DNA from: a virus
Virus record (IMG/VR): IMGVR_UViG_3300024346_000106
Location: 1-49,443 of that record
Length of the DNA stretch: 49,443 nt
Direction: 5' to 3' (one strand)
The notes under the pieces were generated by a model, which did no database searches, had not been told where the DNA came from, and saw nothing but the letters and a program-made list of their open reading frames with translations. The translations under genes were made by a program, and so were the position numbers. The stretch's first letter is position 1, and every line of letters starts with the position of its first letter. This document shows, in pieces, positions 4,196 through 11,430 of the stretch.

Positions 4196-5344
4196 TTATT
4201 CGTAGTCTCTTAATGCTTTCGCATATGGAAACCTAGGTACCCCATCAGGGGTGAGATTGAAATATTGAATAGTTACCTGCTTACCTATAAGTGAATCTTT
4301 GTTCTCCCATAGTCTCACAAGATAGTCATGAGGACCCATAATATTACTATTAAAGTGGCGACCGTCTGACATGACCAGGGTAAATGCCCCAGCCATGCCA
4401 GACTTGTTCCCCTCGCCCTCAACAACGTTAACAATCTCATACTCGCTATCGATAAACTTCTTAAGCTTTAGAAGATTCTTACTTCGCTTATTTTCATAAG
4501 CAGTATTTCTTCTAAGCATAAGACCTTCATATCCTTCCTTAAGATATGCAGTAAGCTTAGCCTGGACTTCTTGCTGGCTGTTTACAGTGTGTGTTTCAAC
4601 TGTTGTGACATATTTCATGTCGATCAGTTTCATACCAAACGTATTGTATTGCTTAAAGAACTTAAGGCGGTCAATAAAGTTACCACTTACCATATTGTCG
4701 TAGCACCAGAATTGAATATACTTCTTGCTTTCAGCAAGCTGAGCATCATCAATTTTTTGTCGTTTAACAAGTTCTACAATCTTATTAAAGTTATCTTTAA
4801 ATTCATGATTGTAAAGCTCGCCATCTAGCTGGACATCCGGGCACTTCTCAAAGAATGAAGCAAGTGCTGTATTAATATGAGGACATGATACAATCTTTTC
4901 ATTGTTTCTAGTCCACATACCATCCTTATTGATCCGGCACCGAATGCCATCTAGCTTAGGCTGAGTATAAGCAGGCCAAGTAATGTCATCTGCGTAGTCA
5001 TCGTAGTTCTTAGCGAGCATTACCTGGTAAGGTAGAGCCTCATCTACGTTCTCGACAGTCTCAGTATAGCCTTTCTTGATCTGCTTATCCCATTTAGCCT
5101 TTGCTTCCTTTGCAGCTTGATCAGCAGCAGTAGTCGCATTTTTCTTGCCAACATTCATTGGCTCACAAAGAGTAGGCTTACTGGTAGTTTTAACACCATC
5201 AATATGCCCACTTGTTGTGTAGAATGAACCATTACCTAAGACGGCAATAGTCCATTCCTCAATCTTATTGCCATTTACCTTCTTATAAAGGGTAGGCAAA
5301 AAGTAATTAGTTACAGCATCATCAGTAGTTTCTACTTGTTCCAT
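4196..5344 (-). CDS. ATP-dependent DNA ligase with N-terminal WGR domain
   Basis: Residues 15-95 form a WGR-like domain (LYKKVNGNKIEEWTIAV, a GHIDG turn, then NVGKKNATTAADQA), as seen in ligases of several large phages. The nucleotidyltransferase core follows. TQPKLDGIRC carries the adenylated Lys130 (motif I, KxDG), and later come YEGLMLRR (motif IV) and LLKLKKF (motif V). It would seal nicks in phage DNA during replication and repair. I start it at ATG 5344, preceded by GGGAGGAATATTTTCC, rather than at an upstream frame extension. Its start overlaps the end of the purA-like gene by 13 bases. Confidence 0.88.
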   Translation of the reverse strand: MEQVETTDDAVTNYFLPTLYKKVNGNKIEEWTIAVLGNGSFYTTSGHIDGVKTTSKPTLCEPMNVGKKNATTAADQAAKEAKAKWDKQIKKGYTETVENVDEALPYQVMLAKNYDDYADDITWPAYTQPKLDGIRCRINKDGMWTRNNEKIVSCPHINTALASFFEKCPDVQLDGELYNHEFKDNFNKIVELVKRQKIDDAQLAESKKYIQFWCYDNMVSGNFIDRLKFFKQYNTFGMKLIDMKYVTTVETHTVNSQQEVQAKLTAYLKEGYEGLMLRRNTAYENKRSKNLLKLKKFIDSEYEIVNVVEGEGNKSGMAGAFTLVMSDGRHFNSNIMGPHDYLVRLWENKDSLIGKQVTIQYFNLTPDGVPRFPYAKALRDYE

Positions 5345-6402
5345 GGAAAATATTCCTCCCAATTAACAATTTCTGGATGATCAGAGAAAATCACCTCTTC
5401 CTGTAGAAGATTAGGACATTCTCTTTCAATAATTCCTGCAATAGTATCCTGCATTTGCTTAAGTGCTTGACAAACAACAAGCTCATTCTGATAATAAAAC
5501 TTGAATGGATTCCCATCCTGAATTTTATTAAGAATATCGCCCTTGTTAATTACAACATTAGTTACACCAGACAGACGAATCGCAGCAATCATCTTATCAA
5601 GATTAAGATAATTAACAATTCTTTGACGTCCAGTAGTTGTACCTTGTTCCTTTCCAAGCCTGCCAATCTCAGCAAGAACTGGATCAGTCATTAGGCTAAC
5701 AGGAAACATAGGATCAGCACCACTCTTAGTATCGTACATCTTACCAACGCCAATAATTTTATAGATGTCTCTAGGCGAAAAACCTAGAGAACAAGCATTA
5801 TATGGCAAGGTAGAGCTGCTAGTAACGTATGGGTATGATCCATGATCAATATCCAACCAAACGCTCTGTGCACCTTCTGCTAGGACACAACCAAAAAGTT
5901 GCTCATCCCAAATCCATTTAGGGTCAAGTAGCTCAGCTGCACGAATTCCTTTACGCAACATCTTATCTGAGTAACACGGAGCAATACCTTGTCCGGTAGT
6001 ACCAAGATGCGAGAGATAATTAGTGTCATAGCTAATGTGATCCTGAGTAATTACATGAGCCTTAGGTGAAACCTTAACAAGACTCGTATCAAACCCATTA
6101 GCTTCTAGATAGGCAATCTCTGCCATGAACTTGCTAACATTGATTACGCAAGCAGGACCAATGATGCTGGGAACACCGTGGAATACTCCGCTAGGGATAA
6201 GGTGGGTCTTGTACTGCTTACCATCCAAGTAAACAGTATGACCCGCATTAGGGCCGCCGTTAAAGCGACAGACAAAGTCATAATGCTGGTAGTCAACAAG
6301 TGAGCTAACAACTTTGCCTTTGCCTTCATCGCCCCAAGCAAGCCCAACAACAATATCAACGAATTCCACTTCTCGAGAAGCAGAGTAATTATTAGATTCC
6401 AT
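5332..6402 (-). CDS. purA: adenylosuccinate synthetase (PurA family)
   Basis: All landmark motifs of the family are present: the GTP loop WGDEGKGK at 23-30, GGPNAGHT at 49-56, HLIPSG around 67-72, an LGTTGQGIAPCYSDK loop, an EGAQ segment followed by LDIDHGSYPYVTSS, and a TTGRQR Asp-binding loop. The enzyme joins aspartate to IMP with GTP hydrolysis. The 356 residues are shorter than the bacterial enzyme (about 430). Phage homologues called PurZ act on dGMP in 2-aminoadenine genomes. Here the catalytic Asp of WGDEGKGK is kept, which favours a PurA-like activity, but GRQR and EGAQS differ from the common GRPR and EGAQG. The start at 6402 has AAGGAGATTC. Confidence 0.85.
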   Translation of the reverse strand: MESNNYSASREVEFVDIVVGLAWGDEGKGKVVSSLVDYQHYDFVCRFNGGPNAGHTVYLDGKQYKTHLIPSGVFHGVPSIIGPACVINVSKFMAEIAYLEANGFDTSLVKVSPKAHVITQDHISYDTNYLSHLGTTGQGIAPCYSDKMLRKGIRAAELLDPKWIWDEQLFGCVLAEGAQSVWLDIDHGSYPYVTSSSTLPYNACSLGFSPRDIYKIIGVGKMYDTKSGADPMFPVSLMTDPVLAEIGRLGKEQGTTTGRQRIVNYLNLDKMIAAIRLSGVTNVVINKGDILNKIQDGNPFKFYYQNELVVCQALKQMQDTIAGIIERECPNLLQEEVIFSDHPEIVNWEEYFPWNK

Positions 6403-6410
6403 GAATCTCC

Positions 6411-7469
6411 TTAAAAGGCATAACGAACTTGGCACCAGGGAATAAATTTCTTAATGCCAGAGCAAAAAGCTTTGACATTTTCGCCCTTAAGTCCATACTT
6501 ATAGCAAAGCACGTCGGCTTTATTAGCTTTGACTTGCTGATTCTCAGGAGTCCAGAGAAACTCTTCGCCCTTGGGATTCCATTGCATGTTAAGATCATGC
6601 AAATCAGAGCTATGAGTTAGAAAAATAACCTCAGACTTCATCTGAAGCTTAGCTTTATCTGTTAGCTTAGAATCCATAAGCTTCCAAAGCTCAACCCAAT
6701 CTTTTTTCCACTGCTTATCTCCGTACATAATTACAGGAGAAAAGTTAGCATGAACTTCATAGCCAGCGTCAACAAGTACATTCATTGCATCAATGCGATC
6801 TTCGATAGGTGAAGTCCTAATATCAACATACTTAGATACTGCTTGTGGCATTAGGCTATAACGAATTCTTGTACGATCCATAGGATCAAACTTTAAGAAT
6901 GGATCGATATTAACAGTTTTAGTTGCAAAAGTCAACTTACCATGCTTAGTACTCTTGATAGCTTCCATTAGTACAAATGGATTATCACTAATCATTGCGT
7001 CAATGCTAACATCATTATTATTACCAATGTCATAAATCCAGTATTCCGGATCACATTGATTAGGCTCGCTCTTAGGGCCAAGCGCATTGCAGTGATCTAC
7101 AATGCTTTCAGCAACCTTCTCACTATTAAGAAATACTGTCAAAGGATTACTGCCGCCCTTGCGCCGAGCAACATAGCAATACTGGCATGCACTTAAGCAG
7201 CCATTACTATGAGATGGAGCAATGAAGTCAGAGCTTCTACCGTTGACTGTACTTGCCAGGATCTTAAGCTTACCAAGAACCAAGATATGCTTCTTAGCCT
7301 TAATCCAATCAACAGGATCCATATCTACTAGATCTGGAATTTTCCAATGACTAGCAACTTTTTTAACCTGTGCATCAGGAAATCTATTTAGAATAGAATC
7401 AAGTCTGTTTTGCTCAGACTGTGAATAATTATTATTCTCTACATAGATAGTCTTAAAGTCCAACTTCAA
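6411..7469 (-). CDS. spore photoproduct lyase-like radical SAM protein
   Basis: The radical-SAM cluster motif is CLSACQYCY (Cys91, Cys95, Cys98) after an APSHSNG lead. ATKTVN follows, then a RIRYSLMPQ strand and a long segment with EDRIDAMNVLVDAGYEVHANFSPVI and W-K-DW, matching the order in the SPL family. Known members use SAM chemistry to reverse the thymine spore photoproduct. The C-terminal CSGIKKFIPWCQVRYAF holds cysteines that could include the hydrogen-donor Cys. The start is TTG 7469 with GGAG eight bases upstream. The family is secure; the exact lesion repaired is inferred. Confidence 0.8.
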   Translation of the reverse strand: MKLDFKTIYVENNNYSQSEQNRLDSILNRFPDAQVKKVASHWKIPDLVDMDPVDWIKAKKHILVLGKLKILASTVNGRSSDFIAPSHSNGCLSACQYCYVARRKGGSNPLTVFLNSEKVAESIVDHCNALGPKSEPNQCDPEYWIYDIGNNNDVSIDAMISDNPFVLMEAIKSTKHGKLTFATKTVNIDPFLKFDPMDRTRIRYSLMPQAVSKYVDIRTSPIEDRIDAMNVLVDAGYEVHANFSPVIMYGDKQWKKDWVELWKLMDSKLTDKAKLQMKSEVIFLTHSSDLHDLNMQWNPKGEEFLWTPENQQVKANKADVLCYKYGLKGENVKAFCSGIKKFIPWCQVRYAF

Positions 7470-9045: not shown

Positions 9046-9082
9046 TCTAGTAGAATCTCCAGTGATAAAGTAAATAAATAAG

Positions 9083-9165
9083 TGGGAGTAGATGGACTCG
9101 AACCAACGTAGACCGAAGTCGGGGGATTTACAGTCCCCTGCAATTGCCACTATGCGATACTCCCA
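9083..9165 (-). tRNA. tRNA-Tyr (GTA anticodon)
   Basis: The acceptor arms TGGGAGT/ACTCCCA pair fully. The anticodon arm is GGGGA-CTGTAAA-TCCCC, giving anticodon GTA (Tyr). An extended variable arm (GACTTCGGTC) fits a bacterial tyrosine tRNA, and the T arm carries GGTTCGAGTCC. No CCA is encoded. It lies eight bases from the 3' end of the split tRNA-Leu. Confidence 0.92.
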
Positions 9166-9316
9166 ATATAAGTGCTCAGGACGGGACTTGAACCCGTAAT
9201 TCCAAGGAAGGCAGATTTTCTTACCACTATAGTTTTCACTACCAGCATATGCCGTTTGTGGTCTGGACTATACCTTTACCATAGTATTTCTACATTAGGT
9301 AACAACCGTCTAGTCT

Positions 9317-9754
9317 CTACACTTTCCTTAAATGGTTTGCTTTTCTCCAAGAGTCTGTCATAGAATGACAGTTTGGACAAAGCAACTGCAAGTTTTCTTC
9401 TACATTATTTGTCCTATCTCCATCAATGTGATGTATTTCCAATTTTATCTGCTCAGAAAGCCATTCTGAAAGATTACATTGTTCGCATTGATGAGTGCGC
9501 TTTTTTATTAAATGAGGTTTTAGATTAGCAGCTTTAGAATAAGAACTCCAGTCTTTCAACTGTTGATCTTTATTCCAACCTTTACCAGTAAAATGAGAAG
9601 TATCACACAATAACCTTTGGATATTCCGTTGGATATTTGCGTAATTTCCTCCAGCTTGCGCTAGCCCAAGAGCTTTAAGCACTTGAGAAATGCTTCTACT
9701 GGCTTTAACAGCATCTATTATTTGCTGGTCTGTATAATCTTTATATTTACTCAT
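9317..9754 (-). CDS. HNH homing endonuclease, intron-encoded
   Basis: A 145-residue protein. An N-terminal helical segment reads like a DNA-binding repeat (DQQIIDAVKASRSISQVLKALGL). The HNH domain follows: CEQC at 90-93, EIHHIDGDRTNN near 107-117 and LLCPNCHSMTD at 124-133, that is, the beta-beta-alpha metal site with two zinc knuckles. It should nick or cut intronless tRNA-Leu genes to spread the intron. I start it at ATG 9754 (MSKYKDY), since the longer frame extends through an extended -10 sequence. The stop codon lies inside intron core element R, so protein and ribozyme share bases. Confidence 0.88.
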   Translation of the reverse strand: MSKYKDYTDQQIIDAVKASRSISQVLKALGLAQAGGNYANIQRNIQRLLCDTSHFTGKGWNKDQQLKDWSSYSKAANLKPHLIKKRTHQCEQCNLSEWLSEQIKLEIHHIDGDRTNNVEENLQLLCPNCHSMTDSWRKANHLRKV

Positions 9755-9760
9755 AGTAAT

Positions 9761-9769
9761 ATTATAGCA
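9761..9769 (-). promoter_or_regulatory. extended -10 promoter-like site inside the intron
   Basis: The sequence TGCTATAAT, a perfect extended -10 box, lies only a few bases before the HNH start codon on the same strand, with no clear -35. It would give a leaderless or very short-leader transcript of the endonuclease independent of the pre-tRNA. Single-site evidence only; the same bases could be chance in an AT-rich stretch. Confidence 0.35.
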
Positions 9770-9949
9770 TAGGTAATGAAGAATAAGCTGTGCGTATGCC
9801 ATTTAAGGCTTAGCTCGGTATTAGCATGCTAGTAAACTAGTTTAGCCTTCACCGAATTTGATTGTGTTCACCTATAAGGTTTCCCTTATAGGGCTCAAAT
9901 TTTCTATAAGTCTGCTGCGTATGCCGATTTCGCCACCTGAGCAAAGGCA

Positions 9950-11119
9950 TTACGCCACAAGTTCTTTATACTTGTCACGCAATGCAAAGTAAGCCAAGTC
10001 TTTAGCCTTAGCCTCGACCTCAAGATCGAGATCAAAAGGTGCATAAAGTAAATTGTCAGAAATCTCATCTACATAATCATGATGAGATCTGTCATATTCA
10101 TGATCTCGACCTTTTGAAATATGCAGTAATGGTTTGTATGCTTTAGAGCGCCACCAATAAAAATCAAATGAACTTACAGGCTTAATAGACATTTGATAAT
10201 TAGCATTATTAATTTCTGAAGGATGATCAATTACAAACTGAATATGCTTACTATAACTAGTACGAGTTTTCCATGTTTCATAACATGCTTCAAGCGCTTC
10301 ACTTAATGGCTCGCCTTCATTATTAATTTTCCAATGATGCACATCTAAAGTAATTGGCATACCAGGAAAATGTTTAATAAGTTCTTGCCATGTCCAGCAA
10401 CCCTTGTCCTCGGTCTCAAAAACAATACGCTTAAAAGCATTAGGATAGTGCTTTAGTACCTGCAAAAGCATGACATTAACATTATTTGCAGTTATAGCTG
10501 GATTATCAGCGCCTCTACTAACGTGAATGTTAAGTGGACAAGAGTAATCAGCTGGGGCACCAATCCAGTCAAGAAACATTGCATGGGCAATAAGTTCTGC
10601 TCTAGATGAGTTCTGTACTACAGGTGATCCACCAAGACTAACAAACTCTGGAGGATGCATAGTCAAGCGACCACCTCCATCCAGATATTTCTGAACAGTC
10701 TTTCTTAGTTGAAGCTCAAGACCATTAAAAGCTCCATCAAATCTACCTTTGATCATAGAGTTAAAAACTTTACATGGTCTAATCCAATAATTAAAATTTT
10801 TATAGGTAAATTCTAGACTCTGTCCATAACTCCAGAGTGGAAATAAATTACTGCTAATGCGATACAACTTGATATTGTTCTGAATGTTATAGTCTAGAAC
10901 AGCAATCAATTCCTTAATATTATGAACATAGATATTAAAGAGAACTTTAGCGCCAACTTCCATATGGTCATAGTGCGCATACCAGTCATCAATGTAACGC
11001 CAACTGCCATCAAACGGAACTGGCTCAAAGTTAAGAGTCTTGATCTTCTTAAGAGTAATAGTTTTAAAGTTAGTTTTATGTGTTCCTAGGCTATTACAAC
11101 AGTAACCAAGTGTAATCAT
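9950..11119 (-). CDS. uvsE: UV damage endonuclease (UvsE/Uve1 family)
   Basis: The TIM-barrel UV-endonuclease motifs appear in order: LGYCCNSLG at the N-terminus, YRISSNLFPL at 86-95, RLTMHPPEFVSLG at 151-163, LNIHVSRGAD at 196-205, VFETEDKGCWTW at 233-244, ITLDVHHW at 256-263 and HISKGRDH further on. The His, Glu and Asp residues are those that hold the metal cluster in the family. It cuts 5' to UV photoproducts and some other lesions. At 389 residues it is longer than bacterial UvsE, with extra sequence around 45-80 and 105-130. The start has AAGGAACT and a 4-base ATGA overlap with the upstream gene. Confidence 0.88.
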   Translation of the reverse strand: MITLGYCCNSLGTHKTNFKTITLKKIKTLNFEPVPFDGSWRYIDDWYAHYDHMEVGAKVLFNIYVHNIKELIAVLDYNIQNNIKLYRISSNLFPLWSYGQSLEFTYKNFNYWIRPCKVFNSMIKGRFDGAFNGLELQLRKTVQKYLDGGGRLTMHPPEFVSLGGSPVVQNSSRAELIAHAMFLDWIGAPADYSCPLNIHVSRGADNPAITANNVNVMLLQVLKHYPNAFKRIVFETEDKGCWTWQELIKHFPGMPITLDVHHWKINNEGEPLSEALEACYETWKTRTSYSKHIQFVIDHPSEINNANYQMSIKPVSSFDFYWWRSKAYKPLLHISKGRDHEYDRSHHDYVDEISDNLLYAPFDLDLEVEAKAKDLAYFALRDKYKELVA

Positions 11120-11430
11120 AGTTCCTTACTAGGCCAACTATCTACCATACCAGTAATTAGAAATTCACGATCTGTTGAGTCCAGTCTAGGAAATGCTTCC
11201 TGAATCATCTTTCCCTGATTCCAAGCAGACAGACACAACATAAATTCACTACTACTCATCTCAGGATAGAGAACGTAGTAAGCCCTACTAAAGGGATCCT
11301 TACGAATAAGTCTAATCTCATCAGTCTCATGAACAATATAAGCCGTAAGTGGACCTCTTGGAGTCGTAACGGTGTGGTATTCACCATCAAGACTAGGCAT
11401 CCAAAAAGTATCAGTATGAGGATACAACAT
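11116..11430 (-). CDS. hypothetical protein, 104 aa
   Basis: A small soluble protein starting MLYPHTDTFW, with AGGAGATATATT before the ATG. It has a beta-rich first half (LTAYIVHETDEIRLI) and an acidic helical end. Its TGA overlaps the ATG of the UV endonuclease gene, so translation is coupled and a role linked to that enzyme is possible. No known motif. Confidence 0.6.
   Translation of the reverse strand: MLYPHTDTFWMPSLDGEYHTVTTPRGPLTAYIVHETDEIRLIRKDPFSRAYYVLYPEMSSSEFMLCLSAWNQGKMIQEAFPRLDSTDREFLITGMVDSWPSKEL

Follow-up and report, generated by a model that had tools for sequence, protein, structure and literature searches.

A group I intron with an HNH endonuclease gene in the anticodon of a phage tRNA-Leu(UAA) gene

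INTRODUCTION

What is a 688-nt insert doing inside the anticodon of a phage tRNA-Leu gene, and does its position tell where it came from or which host the phage infects? The question is raised by the window analysed here, i.e. the whole 49,443-nt stretch of DNA corresponding to positions 1 to 49,443 of the IMG/VR virus record IMGVR_UViG_3300024346_000106. A sequence-only reading had taken the insert for the ancient tRNA-Leu(UAA) intron of cyanobacteria and chloroplasts, carried by a phage together with a homing endonuclease gene, and had seen in it both a vehicle for spread of that intron and a clue to the host. According to a 2014 review, all phage introns observed by then were in protein-coding genes, despite the many tRNA genes present in phages (PMC3984707); tRNAscan-SE 2.0, for its part, was not designed for the detection of group I introns (PMC8450103).

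RESULTS

A tRNA-Leu(UAA) gene split between positions 34 and 35

In intron mode, ARAGORN returned a tRNA-Leu(taa) gene with a 688-nt intron at 9942-9173 on the minus strand (Table 1); the default mode misses it. Once rejoined, 9942-9908 and 9219-9173 form an 82-nt class II tRNA-Leu(UAA) with a full cloverleaf and the anticodon TAA, the insertion point being between tRNA positions 34 and 35. The exons, insert length and insertion site given by the sequence-only reading were exact to the base. At the gathering threshold, Rfam gave no intron match in the window, and the intron reached 23 bits against RF00028 (E 0.0018, gathering 50), a low score which is due to the interruption of P6 by an ORF. 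ORF-less relatives from phage tRNA-Leu genes did pass the threshold (L121, 62.3 bits; L110, 60.1; L023, 56.9), as did a relative in a tRNA-Arg gene (L249, 53.6 bits).

Table 1. Positions of the split tRNA gene, the elements of its intron and the flanking genes in the window
Feature	Position	Strand	Description
tRNA-Tyr(GUA)	9082..9164	-	directly downstream of the split tRNA-Leu
3' exon, tRNA-Leu(UAA)	9173..9219	-	starts with AAAATCTGC (positions 35 onward); class II variable arm
Group I intron, IC3-like	9220..9907	-	688 nt; final base G (9220)
P9 domain	9223..9262	-	ACCAC 9262-9258 / GUGGU 9227-9223, plus inner hairpin
P7 3' strand	9266..9270	-	UAGUC, S element; covariation
P8	9277..9301	-	fold and covariation; 100% paired
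P3 3' strand	9302..9307	-	GGUUGU; covariation
P7 5' strand	9311..9315	-	GACUA, R element, guanosine-binding helix
HNH endonuclease gene, loop L6	9317..9754	-	145 aa from ATG 9754; 161 aa from in-frame ATG 9802
P6a 3' strand	9326..9335	-	CCAUUUAAGG; doubles as coding sequence for the HNH C-terminus
P6a 5' strand	9799..9808	-	CCUUAAAUGG; closes the ORF-holding loop; perfect complement at 9335-9326
P4 + P5	9814..9856	-	P4 UUCGGU 9856-9851 / ACCGAG 9819-9814; contains P and Q elements
P3 5' strand	9860..9865	-	ACAAUC; partner GGUUGU 9307-9302
P2	9871..9892	-	CCUAUAAGG (9892-9884), GAAA, CCUUAUAGG (9879-9871); fold and covariation
P1	9894..9910	-	exon CUU 9910-9908 + GAG 9896-9894; invariant across 31 phage introns
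5' exon, tRNA-Leu(UAA)	9908..9942	-	3' end GCAGACTT, U34 = 5' splice site; ARAGORN and exon joining
UvdE-like gene	9950..11119	-	directly upstream; flank that led to the empty site

The insert folds as a group I intron

P1, P2, P4-P5, P6, P7, P8 and P9 were all identified in the insert. After excision of the ORF it folds at -59.5 kcal/mol, against -46.95 ± 4.48 for shuffled sequences (z -2.80), and one shuffle out of 200 folds as well. The covariation analysis bore on 31 divergent phage introns, window included. A model of 49 pairs is paired in 96.9% of cells and this value falls to 30-41% in slid controls; 31 of the 49 pairs show two-sided changes, and the observed score is reached by none of 500 shuffles. 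By every measure used, the observation exceeds chance. Among these 31 introns, the U34.G pair of P1 at the 5' splice site is universal (31/31), two-sided changes are found in all seven counted pairs of P2 and compensatory changes in all six pairs of P3. P7 is 100% paired, with an A-U to U-A change in 10 relatives; P9 is also 100% paired and its inner hairpin 99.4%. The P, Q, R and S elements recognised at the outset fall in P4-P5 and P7, and covariation supports the resulting fold.

The window intron has the traits of group I: a P3/P7 pseudoknot core, a U at -1 paired with G, and a terminal G. In it, GACUA is followed by three bases and then by GGUUGU; since only three bases part P7 from P3', the P7.1/P7.2 elements of subgroup IA are absent. 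P5 is short and devoid of P5abc. The common core sequence and the missing IA elements lead us to class the intron as IC3-like, an assignment which rests on core sequence, the Rfam model used (RF00028) being the general one and not specific to a subgroup. The same core is found in the bacterial IC3 tRNA introns, i.e. those of cyanobacterial and plastid tRNA-Leu(UAA), Agrobacterium tRNA-Arg(CCU) and Azoarcus tRNA-Ile(CAU), and one exact P4-P6 pattern fetched the Planktothrix tRNA-Leu (L177) and Agrobacterium tRNA-Arg (L173) introns as well. Like the window intron, these introns interrupt the anticodon loop, have a short P5 and lack P7.1/P7.2. Unlike them, the window intron resides in a phage genome, carries an HNH gene in L6 and is closest in sequence to phage introns. 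The element belongs to the bacterial IC3-like tRNA introns, of which it is a phage representative.

Loop L6 holds an HNH gene that is under purifying selection

A 10-bp helix without mismatches (9808-9799 with 9335-9326) closes the loop around the ORF, whose TAG stop codon (9319-9317) provides the UAG within the conserved R element GUGUAGAGAC. The product scores 24.7 bits against Pfam HNH (cut-off 21.4), matches phrog_10822 (E 1.7e-36) and has conserved H/N/H catalytic residues. Against five sister records, the dN/dS of the gene is 0.08-0.10; it is therefore under purifying selection. These data identify the gene announced inside the intron as an HNH gene, and its context, described below, suggests a role in homing. 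In the AlphaFold model of the protein (pLDDT 80), the HNH region lies at the C-terminus, after three N-terminal helices. PDB sequence searches gave no significant match and Foldseek no informative homologue, its best hit being McrA (E 0.042). A sigma-70 scan found nothing scoring above shuffles. An extended -10-like motif, TGCTATAAT, lies immediately 5' of ATG 9754 and is kept in the sister records; as a promoter element it is only suggestive.

A natural empty site in a near-identical phage

Six sister loci came to light when the UvdE protein encoded next to the tRNA was used as a query. The same 688-nt intron is present in five of them (L320-L324), with 96% identity over 770 bp. In L319, the sixth, the tRNA-Leu gene is intact and intronless, its sequence being 100% identical to the window exons. 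Its UvdE protein is 99% identical to that of the window, and the upstream DNA is 97-99% identical, with 98.2% for the 1571 bp that reach as far as tRNA base 36. At the predicted splice junction, L319 thus offers a naturally empty site. Given its intact gene and the near-identical phages that carry the intron, the intron is polymorphic, the presence-absence pair formed by the window and L319 being compatible with either gain or loss.

The intron could splice and still be immobile, the HNH gene being a relic or having another role, e.g. as a maturase. Many introns of the family do live without an ORF (at least 111 ORF-less phage loci), but the low dN/dS, the intact catalytic residues and the empty-site polymorphism among near-identical phages make decay of this kind unlikely for the window element.

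About 95 bp downstream of the tRNA-Leu gene of L319 lies a freestanding gene of this HNH family, which together with another tRNA-Tyr takes the place of the tRNA-Tyr region. Altogether, two HNH-type inserts are found in the tRNA region of this phage (2166-2639 and 4354-4839), one of them being that which replaces tRNA-Tyr.

The region is otherwise mosaic. The UvdE of L322-L324 is just 80-82% identical to that of the window; because most surrounding genes are 93-98% identical, it is UvdE itself that was swapped, and a reading of this divergence as a mark of homing was dropped. The swapped cassette comprises UvdE and the adjoining ORF (77-82% identity with window 9950-11430). Near the UvdE-like gene is a radical SAM gene resembling spore photoproduct lyase (6411-7469, minus strand), which suggests a UV-repair set. 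A gene of the adenylosuccinate synthetase family (5332-6435, minus strand; PF00709) matches phrog_1211, whose name is linked to modified adenine nucleotides; it is possibly a PurZ-type base-modification gene.

Introns at the same site are common in phages and in many bacterial phyla

With a pattern combining the 3' core and the Leu exon, matches were obtained in at least 120 viral stretches; the P4-P6 core pattern, which is not restricted to tRNA-Leu, matched 119 bacterial and at least 120 viral ones. After normalisation of the splice points, tRNA-Leu(UAA) introns at 34/35 number at least 133 in viruses and 61 in bacteria, both duplicate records and the window itself being counted in; more than 100 IMG/VR phage loci are among them. 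Normalisation disposed of the Tyr(AUA), Phe(GAA) and Ser identities proposed by ARAGORN, which were mis-split Leu(UAA) genes: their splice points were moved to U34 and G|AAAATC. Agrobacterium phage Atu_ph07 and the huge phages LR756501 and LR756511 are carriers, and introns are not mentioned in the corresponding papers (PMC6102473 and PMC7162821). At the same position, other phage introns interrupt tRNA-Arg(UCU), tRNA-Lys(UUU), as in Gordonia phage Daredevil, and tRNA-Leu(UAG). The intron of Microcoleus phage My-WqHQDG is in a tRNA-Arg(CCU) gene, annotated in GenBank as a 286-bp tRNA. Group I introns in tRNA genes at 100 or more viral loci stand against the picture given by the 2014 review, the literature covered being open-access; they were overlooked because tRNA finders are not built for them. 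Published phage tRNA repertoires, those of Atu_ph07 and the huge phages included, are incomplete to the extent that such genes stay hidden.

In bacteria, the carriers include members of the Alpha-, Beta- and Gammaproteobacteria, Bacteroidota, Bacilli, Acidobacteriota and Cyanobacteriota. The match with the cyanobacterial and plastid site holds as a fact, and yet position carries no lineage signal since so many phyla use it. A cyanobacterial intron brought by a phage of cyanobacteria would account for the shared site and for a similar 5' intron start. However, in a tree of 82 introns (168 columns; nine cyanobacterial rows, plastid introns left out), the cyanobacterial introns fall into a single, long-stemmed clade (100/100), and the window intron is placed with the phage introns, across a starred split (96/89). 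Its 3' end, ..GGTAAG|AAAATC, is of the phage and proteobacterial type, cyanobacterial ends being mostly AGAATG or AGAGTG. The AU test did not reject a grouping of the window with cyanobacteria (p 0.488), because only 168 columns were available. We consider a cyanobacterial origin improbable. The lineage and host implications drawn at first are not supported: the intron groups with phage introns, so it is no host clue, and a cyanobacterial host deduced from intron position was rejected, the site being common to many phyla. Position 34/35 of tRNA-Leu(UAA) no longer marks cyanobacterial ancestry or host. A deep common origin of all introns at this site would still be compatible with the sequences. 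In an attempt at host prediction, the terminase of a sister phage matched only distant phages of Moorella, Acinetobacter and Bacillus.

The position of the intron, exactly within the anticodon, calls to mind a protective function: the anticodon loop, in the gene or in the precursor, would be shielded from host anticodon nucleases. The well-assigned phage cases at 34/35 are indeed all U34 tRNAs (Leu UAA, Arg UCU, Lys UUU, Leu UAG). Nevertheless, the U.G pair of P1 needs a U at -1 anyway, so that this bias has a simpler cause; moreover, shielding would stop with splicing, and no genetic link to defence was seen. Such a function is highly improbable.

UUA is rare in the window, where it represents 4.5% of the Leu codons of 21 assumed genes; codon demand is thus no obvious reason for keeping a tRNA-Leu(UAA). 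This rarity and the failure of default tRNA finders could suggest an assembly artefact, or else a tRNA pseudogene in which the insert is there by coincidence. Either is hardly conceivable in view of the 688-nt intron shared at 96% identity with L320-L324, the conservation of splice sites and core over more than 100 viral loci, and exons that form a perfect tRNA.

The HNH family is associated with tRNA-Leu(UAA)

The closest 80 of at least 578 relatives of the HNH protein were analysed. Within this set, 12 of 55 non-redundant viral genes are inside tRNA-Leu(UAA) introns. For 26 of the 37 freestanding non-redundant ones, the nearest tRNA gene is tRNA-Leu(UAA), within 120 bp in 25 cases; the number expected from the tRNAs of the same loci is 13.1, and none of 20,000 simulations matched the observed value. 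The association may weaken at greater distance within the family. Some relatives adjoin Leu(CAA), Leu(UAG), Gln, Glu, Gly, Phe or Tyr tRNA genes, and the proximity may be due to targets at another place in the tRNA cluster. HNH genes next to tRNA-Leu occur in Rhodococcus phage Francesca, Enterococcus phage EFDG1 and Synechococcus phage S-CRM01. Seen from the introns, a freestanding HNH gene lies within 150 bp of the tRNA for 34 of 111 ORF-less phage tRNA-Leu introns, among the matches listed, and for none of 53 ORF-less bacterial ones.

Three placements were found within tRNA-Leu introns: in L6 and sense (the window, L002, L280 and the Bacilli L180 and L240); in L6 and antisense (phages L016, L283 and L262, the last in tRNA-Leu(UAG), and the Gammaproteobacteria L146, L154, L170, L226 and L245); and in L1 and sense (at least ten phages). 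Parsimony gives 14 changes of placement, on a weakly supported tree; the trees were built on 157-168 columns and most of their branches are weak. The window HNH protein nests among those of freestanding genes adjoining tRNA-Leu(UAA) (SH-aLRT 89). In L353 and L354, which have an intronless and an intron-bearing tRNA-Leu gene, respectively, the neighbouring HNH genes are identical in the tree alignment, and identity between the two phages shifts at the tRNA gene, from 97.5% downstream to 73-90% upstream.

DISCUSSION

Freestanding HNH genes adjoining their presumed target gene, and ORF-less introns at the same site, compose the architecture of collaborative homing, a route described in PMC3984707. 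The window element is, very probably, a self-splicing phage intron whose HNH enzyme cuts intronless tRNA-Leu(UAA) genes and which originated by collaborative homing; catalysis and the direction of transfer are deduced. The anticodon of the precursor, split after U34 by the IC3-like ribozyme, would be restored by splicing: with a guanosine bound in P7, the ribozyme would cut at the U.G pair of P1 and the exons would be joined after the terminal G, giving a mature tRNA. The L6-encoded HNH enzyme would cut the intronless gene at or near the insertion site, as the tRNA-Leu association and the empty site lead us to infer, and repair of the cut gene would copy the intron in. Freestanding enzymes, adjoining tRNA-Leu(UAA) genes that are intact or interrupted by an ORF-less intron, would likewise target the anticodon region. 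They would have moved into the intron repeatedly, into L6 on both strands and into L1, the probable order being a freestanding enzyme and an ORF-less intron first, an embedded enzyme later.

On a broader scale, the tRNA-Leu(UAA) anticodon of phages might be a hotspot of collaborative homing, with independent entries of HNH genes into L6 and L1 and with phages as an exchange pool for bacterial introns (Gammaproteobacteria, Bacilli); we see the arguments for and against this proposal as evenly balanced. That part of the sequence-only reading which made the phage a vehicle for spread is plausible in the light of the empty site and of a single HNH family residing in both phage and bacterial tRNA-Leu introns. 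A putative homing hotspot at phage tRNA-Leu is a more interesting result than the lineage first read from the site. Collaborative homing would here operate at a tRNA gene with its successive stages all visible; since the endonuclease forms (freestanding, adjacent and embedded) coexist at one short alignable site, the union of intron and endonuclease is directly testable.

Known systems resemble this one in part. The introns of T4 td, nrdB and sunY and those of HMU phages are likewise phage group I introns with a homing endonuclease gene in a loop, but they are in protein genes. In the cyanophage psbA pair, as summarised in PMC3984707, a freestanding endonuclease adjoins the gene of the supposed target intron site, where ORF-less introns occur; unlike that pair, the present case involves a tRNA gene, tens of separate loci and also later stages, in which the intron houses the same family of endonucleases in three different placements. 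In the Beggiatoaceae, which are not cyanobacteria, two tRNA types that are also split in phages, tRNA-Leu-TAA and tRNA-Arg-TCT, have putative group I introns (PMC4853749); these are on bacterial chromosomes and, in the intron passages of that paper, they are left untyped and no homing gene or phage link is reported. Finally, one doubtful interrupted tRNA, a claimed intron-bearing 'tRNA-Stop', was reported in Vibrio phage pVa5 (PMC5746245); unlike the window intron, the interruption is of about 2.5 kb, had no ribozyme assigned and was possibly an artefact according to its authors.

A few observations were made in passing. In Pelagibacter phage HTVC120P (L433, 1440-1680) and in L432, the same intron core appears within pelagiphage-like capsid genes, as if it had moved between a tRNA and a protein gene. 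The introns of L164, L194, L204 and L155, in tRNA-Met(CAU)-type and tRNA-Leu(CAA) genes, contain a different conserved ORF in L1 (TGDIAEQA...), which presumably resembles I-Ssp6803I; their taxa are Bacteroidota, Methylomirabilota, Desulfococcaceae and Patescibacteria. The phage tRNA-Leu(UAA) intron of L105 has an unrelated ORF 5' of the core. Lastly, tmRNA genes, standard and permuted, are present in intron-bearing phage contigs (L023, 7861-8241; L271, 3451-3721).
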